Below are positions 66 through 9,357 of a stretch of DNA of 21,148 bases, in pieces. The stretch covers positions 1-21,148 of the IMG/VR virus record IMGVR_UViG_3300010334_000334. The stretch is one strand, 5' to 3'. The stretch is from a virus. The notes beneath the pieces are model-generated. The model saw only the letters and a list, made by a program, of their open reading frames with translations, was not told where the DNA came from and made no database searches. The position numbers and the translations under genes were made by a program. Each line of letters opens with the position of its first letter. The first letter of the stretch is position 1.

Positions 66-355
66 TGTTTATCTCCATTGAACACCACGAAGGCAAGTAC
101 CCTTCATTCAACATCAACCTCCACAGCGAAGAGGGTGCGGAAGCATTCTTGTCTATCAAGGGCTGCTCTATCAAGAGCGGTGCTAAGGGTGATTTTCTTA
201 GCTACCCTGCCCGTAAAAAAGACGATGGAACTTGGTGGAAGCACGTTTGGGGCAGCGACAAGTTCAACGCTACCATTCTGAAAAAGGCACAACAGGCACA
301 GCCAGCGGCAAAGCCAAAGACCAAGCCTGAAATGGATGATGATCTCCCGTTCTGA
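65..355 (+). CDS. small SSB-like protein with acidic C-terminal tip
   Basis: A 96-residue protein. The first ~75 residues look like a compact beta-rich domain: an IKGCSIKSGAKGDFLSYPAR stretch followed by KKDDGTWWKHVW, a pattern reminiscent of small phage ssDNA-binding proteins and of SpoVG-like folds. A flexible Ala/Pro/Lys linker (about 76-89) leads to a C-terminal MDDDLPF. That ending closely matches the conserved acidic tip of bacterial SSB (DDDIPF-type), which recruits replication and repair enzymes. The likely role is binding single-stranded DNA during phage replication and docking host SSB partners. It is much shorter than a standard SSB (about 140-180 residues), and I did not recognise a definite family. 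The start overlaps the previous stop as TAATG; the Shine-Dalgarno site is weak (GATGAAAG). The tip is directly visible; the function is inferred. Confidence 0.75.
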   Translation: MFISIEHHEGKYPSFNINLHSEEGAEAFLSIKGCSIKSGAKGDFLSYPARKKDDGTWWKHVWGSDKFNATILKKAQQAQPAAKPKTKPEMDDDLPF

Positions 356-373
356 TATTCGGGGGGAAAGCGG

Positions 374-466
374 ATGCTGTGGAAGCCAAAAAGATCATCC
401 CGCAAGCGATGCCGCCATAGACGCAGCGAGTACCCCCACCCATTTATTTTTATAGGACTTATATGA
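374..466 (+). CDS. possible Arg-rich micro-ORF (30 aa)
   Basis: This ORF would fill most of the 107-base gap between the SSB-like gene and mazG. It encodes 30 residues with a strongly basic centre (KPKRSSRKRCRHRRS) and a hydrophobic end (FIFIGLI). A purine-rich GGGGGGAAAG lies just upstream of the ATG. Its TGA overlaps the mazG ATG as ATGA, as at other junctions in this block, which favours real translation. A peptide this short can arise by chance and the basic run resembles no family I know. If it is not coding, the stretch is a plain spacer with no hairpin or promoter I could recognise. Confidence 0.35.
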   Translation: MLWKPKRSSRKRCRHRRSEYPHPFIFIGLI

Positions 467-771
467 CTACCTACGCAGACATTGAACTAAAAATTGTGCA
501 ATGGGCTGAGGCTCGACGCATCATTCCAAACTCCAATCCAGCCACTCAATTGCTTAAAGCAATCAGCGAGATGGGCGAACTGGCAGACGCAACCATCAAA
601 GGTGATGAAGATGAAATCATTGATGCTGTTGGCGATGTAATGGTTTGCTTGGTCGTTTATTGCGCTCTGAAAGACATGAATCTTGTGTCTTGCATGGAAG
701 TGGCTTACGACCAAATCAAGAACCGCAAAGGTATCCTGTTGGCTAATGGCGTATTTGTCAAAGAGAAATGA
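463..771 (+). CDS. MazG-like nucleotide pyrophosphohydrolase
   Basis: A 102-residue protein of the all-alpha NTP pyrophosphohydrolase (MazG-like) type, which hydrolyses nucleoside triphosphates to the monophosphate and pyrophosphate. The metal-binding signature is visible: E36 and E39 in the SEMGELAD segment, then E51, D54 and D58 in DEIIDAVGDVM. Length fits the single-domain phage forms, which are about half the two-domain cellular MazG. Phage versions are thought to clean the nucleotide pool or alter alarmone levels during infection; the actual substrate cannot be read from sequence. An AGGA Shine-Dalgarno site at 454-457 supports this ATG. The stop overlaps the next ATG (ATGA). Confidence 0.88.
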   Translation: MTTYADIELKIVQWAEARRIIPNSNPATQLLKAISEMGELADATIKGDEDEIIDAVGDVMVCLVVYCALKDMNLVSCMEVAYDQIKNRKGILLANGVFVKEK

Positions 772-1706: not shown

Positions 1707-1954
1707 TGTATAGCTATAACAAACAAGTGCGAGAAGTGTTAAAAGCGCATCCAGACGGCTTAACTTGCGCCCAAATTAATGAGATCGTAAAAGCACCAGA
1801 GGGAAGGATTTTGGCAGTCCTTAAATCAATGCCAGACGCTTATATTGACCGCTGGCAGTATCGTGGTACAAAAAAGTATATTAGTTCGGTCTGGTGCGTT
1901 GTAGAAGTTCCAGAAAATTGCCCTAAACCCAATCAACATGAAAAAACTACCTAA
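1706..1954 (+). CDS. small winged-helix-like protein (82 aa)
   Basis: An 82-residue protein. VREVLKAHPDGLTCAQINEI followed by VKAPEGRILAVLKSMPDAYI and then a Trp/Tyr-rich hairpin (DRWQYRGTKKYISSVWCVVE) fits a winged helix-turn-helix pattern: helix, turn, recognition helix, beta wing. It may be a DNA-binding regulator of phage or host transcription. No extra domain is present for ligand binding or oligomerisation. The frame extends upstream to 1655, but the ATG at 1706 forms the TAATG overlap and is preferred. The assignment rests on pattern, not on a recognised family. Confidence 0.65.
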   Translation: MYSYNKQVREVLKAHPDGLTCAQINEIVKAPEGRILAVLKSMPDAYIDRWQYRGTKKYISSVWCVVEVPENCPKPNQHEKTT

Positions 1955-2138
1955 CTTTGCTGCATGGAGCAATAAAAACTTAGCAGACTTTGCTATGGAA
2001 GCGCATATTCGTATGATTGAACAAGAGGAAGCAATAGAACACCTTAGAAATGATCTAAAGTTTGCCATGTCAGAGTTACGCAAAGGTGCTATTTTGGAAC
2101 ACAAAGATGGTTACAAAGTAGTCGTAAAAAGTGTGTAA
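1938..2138 (+). CDS. hypothetical helical protein (66 aa)
   Basis: A 66-residue protein, overlapping the previous gene by 17 bases. The sequence is mostly alpha-helical and coiled-coil-prone (NLADFAMEAHIRMIEQEEAI, EHLRNDLKFAMSELRKG) with a short basic beta-like end (HKDGYKVVVKSV). No clear Shine-Dalgarno site precedes the ATG; translation probably depends on the overlap. Unknown function. The helix-plus-strand end could allow dimerisation or binding to a partner, but nothing more can be said. Confidence 0.6.
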   Translation: MKKLPNFAAWSNKNLADFAMEAHIRMIEQEEAIEHLRNDLKFAMSELRKGAILEHKDGYKVVVKSV

Positions 2139-2173
2139 GATGGCATTACAGCGGATTGCTGTGGTTAAACTTT

Positions 2174-2177
2174 GGAG
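2174..2177 (+). promoter_or_regulatory. Shine-Dalgarno site deciding the start of the acidic gene
   Basis: GGAG lies 6 bases before the ATG at 2184. It overlaps the alternative in-frame TTG at 2172, so the TTG is very unlikely to be the start. Confidence 0.7.
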
Positions 2178-2183
2178 AACATT

Positions 2184-2516
2184 ATGCTGTTTACTGTTTC
2201 TGTTGATTTGGCTGAAGCCGGTTATTTTGAGTTTTCTACCGAATCTATTTTCCATCTTGCAGAAATTGCACAGATGCTTGGCAACATGGATATCGTTGAT
2301 GAAGACGAAGAATTTGAGGAAGAAGAAATGTTTGAAATCCCAGAAGATATCGACTACTACTTTGCTGAAGGCGAAGAGTACGTCTACGACGAAGATGCTG
2401 AGTGCTTCTGCTGGTACGATGCCGAATACGATGTTTGGTACTGGCTGGACGAAGAAGTCGGCGAGTGGCTGCTCGTAGAAGAAGAGCAAGTTGAAGAAGA
2501 GGCTGAAGAAGCCTAA
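2184..2516 (+). CDS. extremely acidic small protein, candidate DNA mimic
   Basis: A 110-residue protein in which I count 41 Asp/Glu, no Lys, no Arg and a single His, giving a net charge near -40. The first ~30 residues look folded (beta strand, then IFHLAEIAQMLGNM helix). Residues 35-75 are the acidic core with interspersed Tyr/Phe (EDIDYYFAEGEEYVYDEDAE). An aromatic Trp/Tyr-rich region follows (CFCWYDAEYDVWYWLDEEVG), then a pure acidic tail. The mix of acid and aromatic residues at this size is comparable with phage DNA-mimic proteins such as T7 Ocr (117 residues), but no homology is recognised. It is last in the rightward block, just before a terminator. An alternative is an acidic chaperone-like or RNA-polymerase-binding protein. 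The gene is well supported; the function is not. Confidence 0.78.
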   Translation: MLFTVSVDLAEAGYFEFSTESIFHLAEIAQMLGNMDIVDEDEEFEEEEMFEIPEDIDYYFAEGEEYVYDEDAECFCWYDAEYDVWYWLDEEVGEWLLVEEEQVEEEAEEA

Positions 2517-2517
2517 T

Positions 2518-2537
2518 TTGGGTACGATCCTACCCAA
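2518..2537 (+). terminator. hairpin upstream of the terminator
   Basis: TTGGGTA and TACCCAA form a perfect 7-bp stem around a 6-base loop immediately after the stop of the acidic gene. It has no T-tract of its own. It probably reinforces the next hairpin, protects the 3' end of the mRNA, or slows transcription arriving from the opposite side. Confidence 0.5.
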
Positions 2538-2540
2538 TAC

Positions 2541-2565
2541 GGGGGCTTAGGCCCCCTTTTTCTTT
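2541..2565 (+). terminator. rho-independent terminator of the rightward block
   Basis: GGGGGC (2541-2546) and GCCCCC (2551-2556) form a perfect 6-bp GC stem with a TTAG loop, followed by TTTTTCTTTT. This is a classic intrinsic terminator for rightward transcription. Its T-tract touches the stop codon of the leftward metallophosphoesterase gene. On the other strand no U-tract follows the stem, so it should be mainly one-directional. Confidence 0.88.
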
Positions 2566-3515
2566 TATAGACCGCTAACGTCTATCACTTCACCACGGAA
2601 TTCAATCTGCCCATCGTCCCATTTGTGGACAAGTTCAGGCCAAAGCAGCTTGCCATCCTTGATTGTTAGTACGGCAAAGCCGGAGCGATGGTTCAATGGG
2701 TTGCCTTCACCATACTCAAATTGAGGGCCATAAGGCTCTGCAAGAGTGCCTGTATCCACGCCAAAGCGATTGCCGTTGTAGTCTGCGTAAGGTGTGACCT
2801 TTAGACTGTGCAAATGACCCGTTACGATGCTTTTACCAGCCCCTATTGTGTTGTTGTGGGTTGCATGGATGCCACCCTTGTAGCGGTGCTTGATGATTAG
2901 ATCATCCGTTGCCCAAGTAAGCATACAGAATTGCCAGTCAAGGAAATGGTCTGACAGCTTAAAGCCAGGTGTATTCACATATTGAGGCGCATTGGCTGCC
3001 AATCGCATCTCAAATCGAGAGTCATGGTTACCCATAGTCCAAATCAGTTTGGTGTTATGGCGAACCTTTTTAGCCAGTTCAGATACTTCACCGAGCATCT
3101 CTTTGCAGGTATTTAGTTCTTCAATCAAACTTGGTGTTCTAGCCCAACCCAAAGGTGGATGGCGAGATACAGATGCACCATCAAAAGCGTCCCCATTGCA
3201 AATAACTGCTTTTGGTTGTAGTTTTTCAATCGCCCACAATAAGCCTTGAAAAGCAGTAGTCCGTATCCCAGGCCAGAAATGAGCGTCAGAAAAAACAATA
3301 ACTGTTCCATTTTCAATTCCAAGTTCTGATTTTGGAGGAGGTGGTGCCCAAGTTTTAACTTCTTTGGCAGTATCAAGATTCATGTTGTACTTCTCTGCTA
3401 ATGTGTCTCTGCGCCGGTAGACATTACGAAGGTTTGTTCCCATTGCTTTAGCCATCTTTGAAGGTGACTTATGGGTTGTCCAAAGTTCAATAAATTCAGC
3501 ATCAGTCGTATTCAT
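2565..3515 (-). CDS. HTH-metallophosphoesterase fusion protein
   Basis: A 316-residue protein. Residues about 15-40 look like a helix-turn-helix (KSPSKMAKAMGTNLRNVYRR). A Pro-rich linker (57-62) leads to a calcineurin-like metallophosphoesterase domain with all signature motifs visible: D77-x-H79, G108-D109-xx-D112, G162-N163-H164-D165, H210 and G233-H234-L235-H236. These residues bind two metal ions and hydrolyse phosphomono- or diesters, so activity on DNA, RNA or small nucleotides is possible. The HTH suggests that it is directed to DNA. It is the last gene of the leftward block, 45 bases after the endolysin, with only a weak GGGG ribosome site. Substrate and purpose are unknown; a role in DNA processing or host DNA damage is inferred. 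Confidence 0.85.
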   Translation of the reverse strand: MNTTDAEFIELWTTHKSPSKMAKAMGTNLRNVYRRRDTLAEKYNMNLDTAKEVKTWAPPPPKSELGIENGTVIVFSDAHFWPGIRTTAFQGLLWAIEKLQPKAVICNGDAFDGASVSRHPPLGWARTPSLIEELNTCKEMLGEVSELAKKVRHNTKLIWTMGNHDSRFEMRLAANAPQYVNTPGFKLSDHFLDWQFCMLTWATDDLIIKHRYKGGIHATHNNTIGAGKSIVTGHLHSLKVTPYADYNGNRFGVDTGTLAEPYGPQFEYGEGNPLNHRSGFAVLTIKDGKLLWPELVHKWDDGQIEFRGEVIDVSGL

Positions 3516-6710: not shown

Positions 6711-8315
6711 TTACCTTACAGCGTTATAAATATCGGCCAAAGAACGTTTGGGTTTGGCAGCGCCTTGAACAGCAGGTTTATTAATAGCAGCCGGTGGAGG
6801 GGAAACTCCAGTAGCAGGAAGAGTAACGCCCGTATTTTTTGTATCAACAGAAGCAGCGTAATTTGGCGGCTCTTTCAAAATTGCATTAGCGGTTGCTTTG
6901 TAATCGTTAAGCAGTCCTTGATATACAGGTTGTTTAGTAAATGCAGCTTCAAGTTCACCAGGGCGAGGAGATTGTCCTGCTGGGTAATTTTTAAGTTGTT
7001 GATTTACAAACTCATTAAATGCAATATTTACATCTGCATTAAATTTACCTTGCGCTGCTTGAACACGACCACGGGCATAAGGATCGGTAACACCAAATCC
7101 AGCAGTAGGAATGTTAAAAGTGTTTTGTGGCAAAGTTGATTCTTTGAGTGCAATTTGTTTTGCAGTTTCCAAAGCACTTTGAAGTTTTAATACGCCTTCA
7201 GGATTGTCTTTTGCCAAAGAACTGGTTTTTAAGTAAGCAGCCAAATCTTTTTGAGTTTGGTTAAATTTATTTTCAATAGATGCGCTGCTATTGCTGCTGC
7301 TTTGTTCTTGTTTTAATTGGTTTATTGATTTTGTAGTGCCATCACTAAATTTAAGAGTCCCACCAGCACCCAATGTAGCAACACCTTCTGCGCCCAAACC
7401 AGCAGTAAGTTTGGAATCAATTTGACTTCCTTCTTTGATGGATCCACTTTTAATGCCTTGTTCCAATGCGGCAAGTGCTTGGCTGCGAGTTTGGGAAGTA
7501 CCTACAGAACTGCTGGTAAATTGCAGAATTTTGGATTGCACATCAGGAGGCAAATCTTTAAGGCCAGTCAAAGAATCACCAAGTTGCTGGTAAAGAGTAG
7601 CCATTGCAGGAGCAGCAGATGCAGCAATGTTTGCATTTTTAGTTGTAGCAATAGTTTGCTGTGCATTGGCTTCCGCATTGGCTTTGTCATTCAAATAGCC
7701 AAATGTTTGGTCTAAGCCATTTGCAAACTTGGTTCGTTTGTAAAACTCTTCTGGAGAAATTTCACGTTGACCATCGTAAGCACCATGAATGTCTCCATTC
7801 TCATCAACCTTGTATTGCAAAGGCTGGCCTGAATTTTGATCGTAAGTAATCTTGGTGGTTTGTTTGCCACCACTAAGCAAACTACGCCCAGCTTCTTTGT
7901 TGCCAATTGCGTATTGCAAAAGAGCATTGATGTATTGCGGATTGTTATCGTTGTTACGCCATTGGTTTTGAAACTCAACTCGACCTTGAGGCGTAGTTAC
8001 TCCACCAGCTTTATCAATTTTTGATGTTAAGTTATTCCATTGCTCAGTTCCTGCTGCAACATTTTTAGCAACATGAAGTGCAGATGTTTGAGCAACTGGA
8101 TCGTCCGTATTGCCAGCAAGTTTCAACAATGGTTTAGGATCGCCATTTGCCATTGCTTGTGATTTTGCTGTATTAAACAAATCGGCAGGAGCAACAGTCG
8201 AAGGCAAAGGATCAGGCGCTACAACACCAGGCCCCATTTTTGGGAAATTGTCCTCAACTACATCCAATGGCTTCAAAGGAGGAGGCGCAACAGAAGAGTT
8301 AGGAGTAGTAGCCAT
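6711..8315 (-). CDS. large Gln/Asn/Ala-rich protein, candidate internal virion protein
   Basis: A 534-residue soluble protein. The N-terminal ~45 residues are Pro-rich and likely disordered (APPPLKPLDVVEDNFP). The rest is mostly helical, with Gln/Asn-rich parts (EFQNQWRNNDNNPQYINALL), a small Gly-rich beta-like insert around residues 150-180 (QPLQYKVDENGDIHGAYDGQ), and a Pro-rich tail before a basic end (KPKRSLADIYNAVR). No membrane segment or catalytic motif was found. Gene position among tail and lysis genes suggests an ejection or internal virion protein. It has no visible Shine-Dalgarno site; the ATG lies two bases after the previous stop, so reinitiation is likely. Confidence 0.72.
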   Translation of the reverse strand: MATTPNSSVAPPPLKPLDVVEDNFPKMGPGVVAPDPLPSTVAPADLFNTAKSQAMANGDPKPLLKLAGNTDDPVAQTSALHVAKNVAAGTEQWNNLTSKIDKAGGVTTPQGRVEFQNQWRNNDNNPQYINALLQYAIGNKEAGRSLLSGGKQTTKITYDQNSGQPLQYKVDENGDIHGAYDGQREISPEEFYKRTKFANGLDQTFGYLNDKANAEANAQQTIATTKNANIAASAAPAMATLYQQLGDSLTGLKDLPPDVQSKILQFTSSSVGTSQTRSQALAALEQGIKSGSIKEGSQIDSKLTAGLGAEGVATLGAGGTLKFSDGTTKSINQLKQEQSSSNSSASIENKFNQTQKDLAAYLKTSSLAKDNPEGVLKLQSALETAKQIALKESTLPQNTFNIPTAGFGVTDPYARGRVQAAQGKFNADVNIAFNEFVNQQLKNYPAGQSPRPGELEAAFTKQPVYQGLLNDYKATANAILKEPPNYAASVDTKNTGVTLPATGVSPPPAAINKPAVQGAAKPKRSLADIYNAVR

Positions 8316-8317
8316 AA

Positions 8318-8620
8318 TTATTGGGGAAGAAATGGGTTAGTTTGTGCCGACAATTCTACTTCTGGATGAACCAAATTATCTTGTGTAATAGGAATTGCTG
8401 TTGTATTTGGAACTGCGCCAATGGGAGCAATTTGAGTAACAGGCGCAACAGGTTTTCCAGAAGGGCTAGACGATGGAGGAATTCCGATTGCATTTTTCAA
8501 AGCAACAATACCAACATCTTTAATGCCTTGCATCCATCCTGGCATTTCTGTTGGAGTGGAATAATATTTGGATTCATTTCCAAAATTACTCAATCCAGCA
8601 TTGGCAAAAGGAGAAGCCAT
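8318..8620 (-). CDS. hypothetical virion-region protein (100 aa)
   Basis: A 100-residue Pro/Ser-rich protein. The N-terminal half has a possible short helical segment (EMPGWMQGIKDVGIVALKNA) and the C-terminal half looks disordered (SSSPSGKPVAPVTQIAPIG). A clear Shine-Dalgarno site (AAAGGAA) precedes the ATG. It lies between two candidate ejection proteins with minimal gaps, so it is probably a small virion or ejection accessory protein. I recognise no family. Confidence 0.65.
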   Translation of the reverse strand: MASPFANAGLSNFGNESKYYSTPTEMPGWMQGIKDVGIVALKNAIGIPPSSSPSGKPVAPVTQIAPIGAVPNTTAIPITQDNLVHPEVELSAQTNPFLPQ

Positions 8621-8631
8621 AATTTATTCCT

Positions 8632-9357
8632 TTATTTGAATTGGAATCCAGCGCCTTTACTAGAGCCTTGGCTAGTAGAACCTTGAGTTCCAGAGAAGTT
8701 TGGCGTAGTAGATGATTGAGGTGTTCCAAAAATAACAGAAGCGTATTTAGCATAAGCGTCTTGAGGTGCACCAGCGTAACCAATACGGGAAGCAGCAGCT
8801 TGATTAGCGGCAGTTAAATTGGACGCTCCACCGCTATACAAAGCATTGGCGGCAGCGGCACGATTTGCCTCTACACCAGCAGATGCATTCGCAGCAGCAG
8901 TTGCTTGACGTTGTGCATTAAGACTTGCAAGGTTGGTATCAGCCAATGCTTGACGAGCGGAACCAAGGTCACCAGCAGCACCATACATGGCATTCTGTCC
9001 AGCCAAAGCCTCACGGGAGGTTTCACGACCAGCTTGCAATGCAGCATTAACTTGTTCTTGTTTGTATTGCGGGCCAAACAAAGAAGCAAGACCAGCAGCA
9101 CCACCCAACAAAGAAGCAGAACCTACGCCTTGTTGTAGTTGGCCTGTTTTACCGGCAACATTAGAAGCGGTATTGGCAGCATTAGAAACTTGTCCAGCAG
9201 CTTGGTTATATACATTACCAGCACCAGCAATAGTATTTTGATATGCTGGAAGTGCCGTGTTTTTCAAAAAGTCCGTTTGAGTTCTGAGCAACTGTTGTTG
9301 CTCTGGAGTCATTTGAACTTGCGTTGATTGATTTCCAGATGATTTACCGGCGCCCAT
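8632..9357 (-). CDS. Ala/Gln-rich helical protein, candidate small ejection protein
   Basis: A 241-residue protein starting MGAGKSSGNQSTQVQMTPEQ. Much of it is small-residue-rich helix (ALADTNLASLNAQRQATAAA) with one mildly hydrophobic segment around residues 79-93 (SASLLGGAAGLASLF) and a Ser/Gly/Thr-rich C-terminus. This composition (Ala, Gln, Asn, Ser, very few Lys) is typical of podoviral ejection proteins that form a channel through the envelope, such as P22 gp7 or T7 gp14, although I cannot show homology. An excellent Shine-Dalgarno site (AAGGAG, complement of 9365-9370) is encoded in the end of the upstream gene. Confidence 0.7.
   Translation of the reverse strand: MGAGKSSGNQSTQVQMTPEQQQLLRTQTDFLKNTALPAYQNTIAGAGNVYNQAAGQVSNAANTASNVAGKTGQLQQGVGSASLLGGAAGLASLFGPQYKQEQVNAALQAGRETSREALAGQNAMYGAAGDLGSARQALADTNLASLNAQRQATAAANASAGVEANRAAAANALYSGGASNLTAANQAAASRIGYAGAPQDAYAKYASVIFGTPQSSTTPNFSGTQGSTSQGSSKGAGFQFK

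Follow-up and report, generated by a model that had tools for sequence, protein, structure and literature searches.

The acidic gene and its surroundings

The stretch of viral DNA analysed here (the window; 21,148 nucleotides, IMG/VR record IMGVR_UViG_3300010334_000334) contains a plus-strand ORF encoding a hyper-acidic protein, with a conserved leader directly upstream and a predicted terminator and a convergent metallophosphoesterase gene downstream (Table 1). ORF analysis confirmed the composition given in the original prediction, with 41 of the 110 residues being Asp or Glu and none Lys or Arg. The protein further contains a single His and 20 aromatic residues (Phe, Trp or Tyr), and has a computed pI of 4.05 and a computed charge of about -41 at pH 7. 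Asp and Glu account for 37% of its residues, versus 19% in the runner-up among the window ORFs of at least 40 residues. The window and the related loci then collected yielded 4505 distinct ATG ORFs of at least 45 residues. Of these, 84 were hyper-acidic (Asp/Glu ≥28%, Lys/Arg ≤6%), and all 84 carried the core motifs of the acidic family. In this set, hyper-acidity is unique to the acidic-family gene and is far from chance.

Relatives retain the frame, the composition and the core, and dN/dS ranges from 0.13 (core) to 0.47 (tail); the ORF therefore encodes a real protein. A 153-residue antisense ORF is accordingly a by-product.

Table 1. Features in and around the acidic cassette of the window
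Feature	Position	Strand	Remarks
MazG-like pyrophosphohydrolase gene	463-771	+	in the plus-strand block
Small conserved ORF	1938-2138		NFAAWSNxNLAxFAxE motif; directly 5' of the cassette in many slot-I loci; no family match above cut-off
Conserved cassette leader	2126-2183	+	covariance model R1 match, 59.1 bits
TAAGAT, promoter -10-like box (TARGAT)	2136-2141	+	invariant G at 2135; GT[A/C] about 15 bases upstream
Leader hairpin ACAGC-GGATT-GCTGT	2148-2162	+	at or just past the inferred transcription start; covariation, RNA fold
Shine-Dalgarno sequence GGAG	2174-2177	+	after AT-rich spacer; conserved in leader alignment
Hyper-acidic protein, F1 type, 110 residues	2184-2516	+	ATG start
Parts of the F1 protein	residues 1-34; 35-59; 60-99; 100-110		beta-beta-alpha domain; acidic linker; aromatic-acidic core; acidic tail
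F1 core, residues 60-99	2361-2480	+	four short strands with acidic turns; dN/dS 0.13
Hairpin and intrinsic terminator	2518-2560	+	predicted; hairpin 2518-2537, terminator 2541-2556 with T-rich tail
Metallophosphoesterase gene	2565-3515	-	convergent; right border of slot I, outside the cassette; PF00149, E 2.7e-7; phrog_221, E 1e-28

Extent and selection of the F1 family

Relatives of the same type as the window protein (F1) are spread over well over 100 IMG/VR phage records, which are uncultured and mostly fragmentary. A first scan of IMG/VR found 34 relatives and a profile scan 118, and 68 distinct sequences were recovered, the window's own not counted. All relatives are metagenomic contigs, some possibly chimeric. 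Two queries found no relatives of the acidic protein in bacterial genome contigs, and tblastn searches of named phages with the whole protein, the cores and the F3 type described below gave nothing meaningful, with the reservation that the low-complexity filter could mask relatives. Because this filtering could conceal matches, six named related phage genomes were rechecked using the profile, which recovers 47 of 47 positive records; the acidic gene was absent from all six.

In the alignment, F1 proteins consist of an N-terminal domain, an acidic linker of variable length, a core that is 40 residues long throughout the aligned set, and an acidic tail, also of variable length, in which EDEA repeats are frequent. 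The core follows the motif EEYVYDEDxxCxCWYDxxxxxWYWLxxExGEWLLVED, and W77, Y78, D79, W85, Y86 and W95 are invariant. Median dN/dS was 0.23 for the N-terminal domain, 0.37 for the linker, 0.13 for the core and 0.47 for the tail. The linker and tail share only 44-49% identity and vary in length, and every one of the 57 aligned members has a net charge between -26 and -50. Together, the dN/dS pattern and the conserved charge indicate that the core residues are kept by selection, while the linker and tail keep their charge as sequence and length drift.

F1 genes occur in three settings: adjoining the metallophosphoesterase gene, as in the window (setting A), adjoining the capsid gene (setting B), or downstream of the metallophosphoesterase gene on the same strand (setting C). 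The proteins of setting C lack the N-terminal domain, and their genes lack the leader.

A structured leader precedes the acidic gene

In settings A and B, the leader has a constant order: GTARGAT, about six bases, a short G+C stem-loop, an AT-rich spacer and GGAG. The TARGAT box, nearly invariant across 17 diverged leaders, is a putative promoter element; neither a TTGACA -35 element nor a sigma-70 promoter prediction was found at the leader, and the box is not a canonical -10 sequence. In the window, TAAGAT overlaps the TAA stop of the upstream ORF. That the box is conserved merely as this stop codon was ruled out, as no ORF ends there in capsid-slot loci.

The stem occurs as covarying variants (GCAGC/GCTGC, GCGGC/GCCGC and ACAGC/GCTGT), with 94.7% of cells paired and three pairs changed on both sides. 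The covariation score exceeded those of all 500 shuffles and pairing was lost on sliding the partner, bearing in mind that sequence relatedness can raise such scores. Using the covariance model, we found the leader in 74 of 89 sources, once in each (twice in L058), always and only directly before the acidic gene. A pattern scan of all IMG/VR contigs added eight new contigs, one of which had the full leader, upstream of an F1 gene; the scan found no full leader before any other gene. As the full leader is confined to the acidic gene, a phage-wide promoter was ruled out. The leader can also serve as a marker with which to find further acidic genes. The leaders of the F2, F3 and F4 types share the layout (TA box, stem-loop some 5-6 bases on, Shine-Dalgarno sequence) with other stem sequences; the exception is L258, in which the stem is present and the box absent. 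Most relatives that have the leader also have a G+C stem-loop and T tract downstream of the gene.

Stem-loops in 5' untranslated regions are known stabilisers of bacterial messages (PMC7509114). The leader hairpin would protect the message and give high expression of the acidic protein, and the cassette would be transcribed from its own promoter, on the phage's own schedule. Promoter-like box, hairpin, strong ribosome-binding site, single ORF and, usually, terminator very probably form a self-contained, moron-like cassette. From its sequence, such an expression unit looks suited to a host-takeover or anti-defence gene.

The acidic gene had originally been described as closing an early-type block before a terminator. 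It is indeed the last gene on the plus strand, with a G+C stem-loop and T tract at 2541-2560. Nonetheless, it has its own conserved leader in the window and in most relatives, and in relatives it sits elsewhere, including on the late strand; this weakens the early-block argument, which should be dropped. The terminator looks like part of the apparent self-contained cassette rather than of an early block.

Insertion sites and carrier phages

Two main slots accommodate the cassette: the junction between the lysis and metallophosphoesterase genes and that between the major capsid and HNH genes. In many loci, one border of the cassette is the metallophosphoesterase gene. Five F1 loci (L042, L043, L052, L053 and the second copy of L058) have opposite-strand genes, endolysin and metallophosphoesterase, on both sides; L066, whose sequence covers the left side only, likewise has an opposite-strand left neighbour. 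Most F3 genes are flanked by a lysis gene and the metallophosphoesterase gene, which are both on the opposite strand, and most F2 and F4 genes by the major capsid and HNH genes, as in F1 setting B.

At least two podophage lineages, unrelated to each other, carry the cassette; their genomes are about 40 kb and about 60 kb. The 40-kb lineage comprises the window, G004 and G041, and has a phrog_1328 capsid; the window contains no capsid gene and was assigned through its tail and virion genes. The nearest named genome is MW202484, with a capsid 85% identical to G041's. In this genome (L188), the deposited annotation at 7955-9004 is a hypothetical protein on the minus strand, and tblastn places the major capsid protein at 7976-9124 on the plus strand, at 85% identity. 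G041 also carries a phage DNA methyltransferase-like gene (L186, 920-2425; phrog_116) with a long middle region outside the match. The 60-kb lineage has a phrog_371 capsid and is related to Planktothrix phage Pag-Yong1, phage DSL-LC04 and Pelagibacter phage HTVC023P; its head module contains a GroES-like co-chaperonin gene (L061, 2199-2639, and homologues; phrog_3188).

Within the 60-kb lineage, G007 and G023 share 95.7% identity in the capsid protein yet 63% in the acidic protein, whose gene occupies different slots in the two. The capsid/cement junction of G007 has no cassette, its cassette occupying the other slot. A terminator and an apparent HNH-end remnant, with no HNH gene, lie at 45165-45460 of G007 (L172, 7166-7460), which suggests loss of the HNH gene. 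Many loci have the acidic gene after that for the major capsid protein, but the idea that it is itself a capsid gene was rejected as the main reading, since a phage whose capsid protein is 96% identical carries it in the lysis slot.

With the F1 and F2-F4 profiles, one place per record was found, including in contigs of 56-64 kb, the sole exception being L058 with two. Because the records are contigs, 'one per genome' holds strictly only for those of near-full length (56-64 kb). L058 contains two different F1 cassettes (1009-1398 and 2967-3347) with an intervening endolysin gene. Both have a leader, and a metallophosphoesterase gene comes next in each case; this arrangement could reflect duplication, recombination or an assembly join. 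As in morons, the insertion is present in some relatives and absent from others (the capsid slot of G007 and the six named genomes). A phage integrase (PF00589) was not found in 47 records, mostly fragments, and there are no tRNA genes in the window or in eight further stretches. One gene per record, mostly in two places, and a leader that is unique in each sequence imply a strongly selected function that is independent of phage operons, in lineages related to aquatic podophages.

Divergent members share the polyanion

Using a divergent member (L034, F2) as a lead, we identified 152 contigs, of which the best 80 were analysed. Three variants were distinguished among these best 80 of 152. F2 has a core of the same kind as F1, a different N-terminal sequence and an extra C-terminal strand. 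In F3, the N-terminal domain of F2 and an acidic linker are retained and a short end, EYEIGEIVEDEDGLVWVRV, replaces the core. F4 is the third variant. Across 56 distinct F2-F4 proteins, Asp and Glu make up 31-43% of residues and the net charge ranges from -25 to -55; the C-terminal modules differ despite this shared strong negative charge. Aligning the F1 and F2-F4 profiles with hhalign gave a probability of 99.4% (E 8.6e-22) over about 100 columns, a score that compositional bias may inflate, in an aligned region that does take in the N-terminal domain.

A large, conserved negative charge in a small protein was thus found in 57 F1 and 56 F2-F4 proteins. Judged from these sequences, the polyanion is the common feature of F1-F4, and the modules around it change. 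F1-F4 constitute a previously undescribed family or superfamily of extremely acidic small phage proteins.

Homology searches and predicted structure

Searches of Pfam, NCBIfam, PHROGs and the PDB gave no significant match for the acidic protein, be it to Ocr, ArdA, another known anti-defence family or any other entry. For the Ocr and ArdA families in Pfam and NCBIfam, no match at E ≤1 was obtained with any of the 57 members, and the PDB sequence search gave no match at E ≤10.

AlphaFold2, run with the 57 sequences, produced a model with a mean pLDDT of 62.9 and a pTM of 0.42, similar to that obtained with 21 sequences (mean pLDDT 63-64 over the two). Confidence was higher in the core (pLDDT about 80-86) and low for residues 30-49. 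The predicted elements are strands at residues 4-9 and 13-18, a helix at 19-31 and core strands at 66-69, 74-79, 84-89 and 94-97, which would describe a low-confidence fold of a beta-beta-alpha domain, an acidic linker and a four-stranded aromatic beta-meander. An elongated, DNA-shaped acidic surface is not seen in this beta-rich, low-confidence model, much of the charge lying in disordered stretches of variable length.

Foldseek found no significant match in the PDB for this low-confidence model. The OCRE domain of RBM10 (2mxw, NMR) ranked 11th, with E 7.5. The top row from VIA-align was a small artificial binding protein (Z 3.6, 42 residues, rmsd 2.6), and the one BFVD match with E ≤0.001 was an uncharacterised 67-residue protein from an uncultured phage, 46% identical. 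In Pfam, OCRE (PF17780) was hit by 2 of 57 F1 members, with a best E of 0.011 that is not significant for 57 scans, and by 1 of 18 F2-F4 proteins (E 0.5); the window protein itself had no OCRE match. The faint resemblance to OCRE is a lead, not evidence of membership.

A possible polyanionic mimic and its alternatives

Because charge, cassette and slots stay constant across F1-F4 while the modules change, we tentatively favour polyanionic (nucleic-acid) mimicry, delivered by a moron-like cassette. These observations suggest a decoy protein that occupies DNA-binding proteins of the bacterial host. The acidic product would be a flexible nucleic-acid mimic, its linker and tail occupying the DNA- or RNA-binding surface of a host protein; candidate targets are a restriction or other defence nuclease, a RecBCD/AddAB-type enzyme, RNA polymerase or a nucleoid protein. 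The beta-beta-alpha domain and the aromatic beta-meander would supply oligomerisation and target specificity. The sequences themselves show a conserved leader, a covarying hairpin, apparent independence of the neighbours, one copy per record, a change of slot, purifying selection and kept charge. The genomic context of the acidic gene shows no linked defence, restriction or RNA polymerase target.

The DNA-mimic or anti-defence class proposed in the original prediction remains a reasonable best guess from sequence. The protein is small, strongly acidic, accessory and confined to phages, and it keeps its polyanionic character although its linker and tail diverge, as would be expected of a DNA mimic. 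The profile searches revealed no family with another known role and no relatives of Ocr or ArdA. The model (pLDDT 63, pTM 0.42) does not have the shape of an elongated acidic rod, but its confidence is too low for it to refute mimicry.

Several observations count against this explanation: no target is linked by context, the fold model is of low confidence and not DNA-shaped, the setting C genes lack the N-terminal domain and leader, the non-canonical -10 box has no -35 element with it, and it is the aromatic core that is best conserved, which points to protein-protein binding rather than to charge alone. In the main rival, an OCRE- or WW-like meander grips an extended proline-rich or basic peptide through exposed Tyr and Trp, and the protein is not a DNA mimic. 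The acid would then steer the protein to basic partners, so that it adapts or blocks a host or phage protein-protein contact. The invariant aromatics and the lowest dN/dS fall in the core, whose strand-turn repeat is about 10 residues long, and OCRE binds Arg-flanked polyproline through Tyr (PMC5127646). The weak Pfam (2 of 57, best E 0.011, not significant) and Foldseek (OCRE NMR structure, E 7.5) signals point the same way, but every OCRE score is below significance, and F3 lacks the meander yet retains the polyanion, the leader layout and the slot. We consider docking of this kind rather unlikely.

A role in superinfection exclusion, or another accessory action on the host envelope or metabolism that is unrelated to nucleic acids, would suit the moron-like organisation, since changes in host phenotype or phage immunity are a frequent effect of such loci (PMC7067206); with no sign of membrane association in the composition or predicted model, and no integrase in the 47 mostly fragmentary records, this role seems improbable. 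A further candidate role is that of an acidic chaperone, or of an assembly factor serving a basic virion- or lysis-related phage protein, highly expressed beside the capsid or lysis genes. Slots adjoining the major capsid or the endolysin and metallophosphoesterase genes fit this role, but it is likewise improbable given that the acidic gene is antisense to lysis genes in several loci, changes slot, and is missing from named relatives with homologous capsids.

Polyanionic mimicry could be extended into a modular superfamily, in which an acidic scaffold with exchangeable C-terminal modules for different host targets is carried in a portable cassette, once per genome, by several freshwater podophage lineages; this broader scheme is conceivable, if doubtful. 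Should the protein prove to be a nucleic-acid mimic, its fold class would be new, its modules could be swapped, and inhibitors of bacterial nucleases or polymerases might be derived from it.

Comparison with known systems

Among small acidic mimics, Ocr (PMC7064336) as well as gp5.9 and Gam (PMC9836394) have unrelated folds and combine charge pairing with specific contacts. Like T7 Ocr (gp0.3) and gp5.9, which block host nucleic-acid enzymes, the F1 protein is a small, strongly acidic phage protein. Unlike them, it has a predicted fold that is beta-rich rather than helical and much of its charge in flexible, length-variable stretches, and there is no sequence match.

In SPO1 Gp44, a disordered acidic segment without Lys, Arg or His takes part in inhibition of RNA polymerase (PMC8208478). 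Gp44 has a folded N-terminal domain, then this acidic segment, then a C-terminal part (PMC8208478), a layout that the F1 protein, with its Lys- and Arg-free acidic linker, is predicted to share. Gp44, however, has 237 residues and an Xis-like N-terminal fold with a basic DNA-binding face, whereas the predicted beta-beta-alpha domain at the N terminus here contains few basic residues, if any; no sequence match was found between the two.

The OCRE domain of RBM5 and RBM10 (PF17780) shares with the acidic protein short aromatic repeats and a small beta-sheet (predicted here), as well as the weak Pfam and Foldseek signals. The scores are not significant, the acidic protein has strong Asp/Glu turns, and OCRE comes from a eukaryotic splicing factor rather than a phage protein.

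Typical moron loci are independently transcribed genes antisense to lytic genes (PMC7067206). The acidic cassette resembles them in being a single gene with apparent transcription signals of its own, lying between or antisense to phage genes and patchily distributed among relatives. It differs from them in that no integrase was found in its carriers (mostly fragments), in its leader hairpin of fixed layout, and in its occurrence once per record in two preferred slots.
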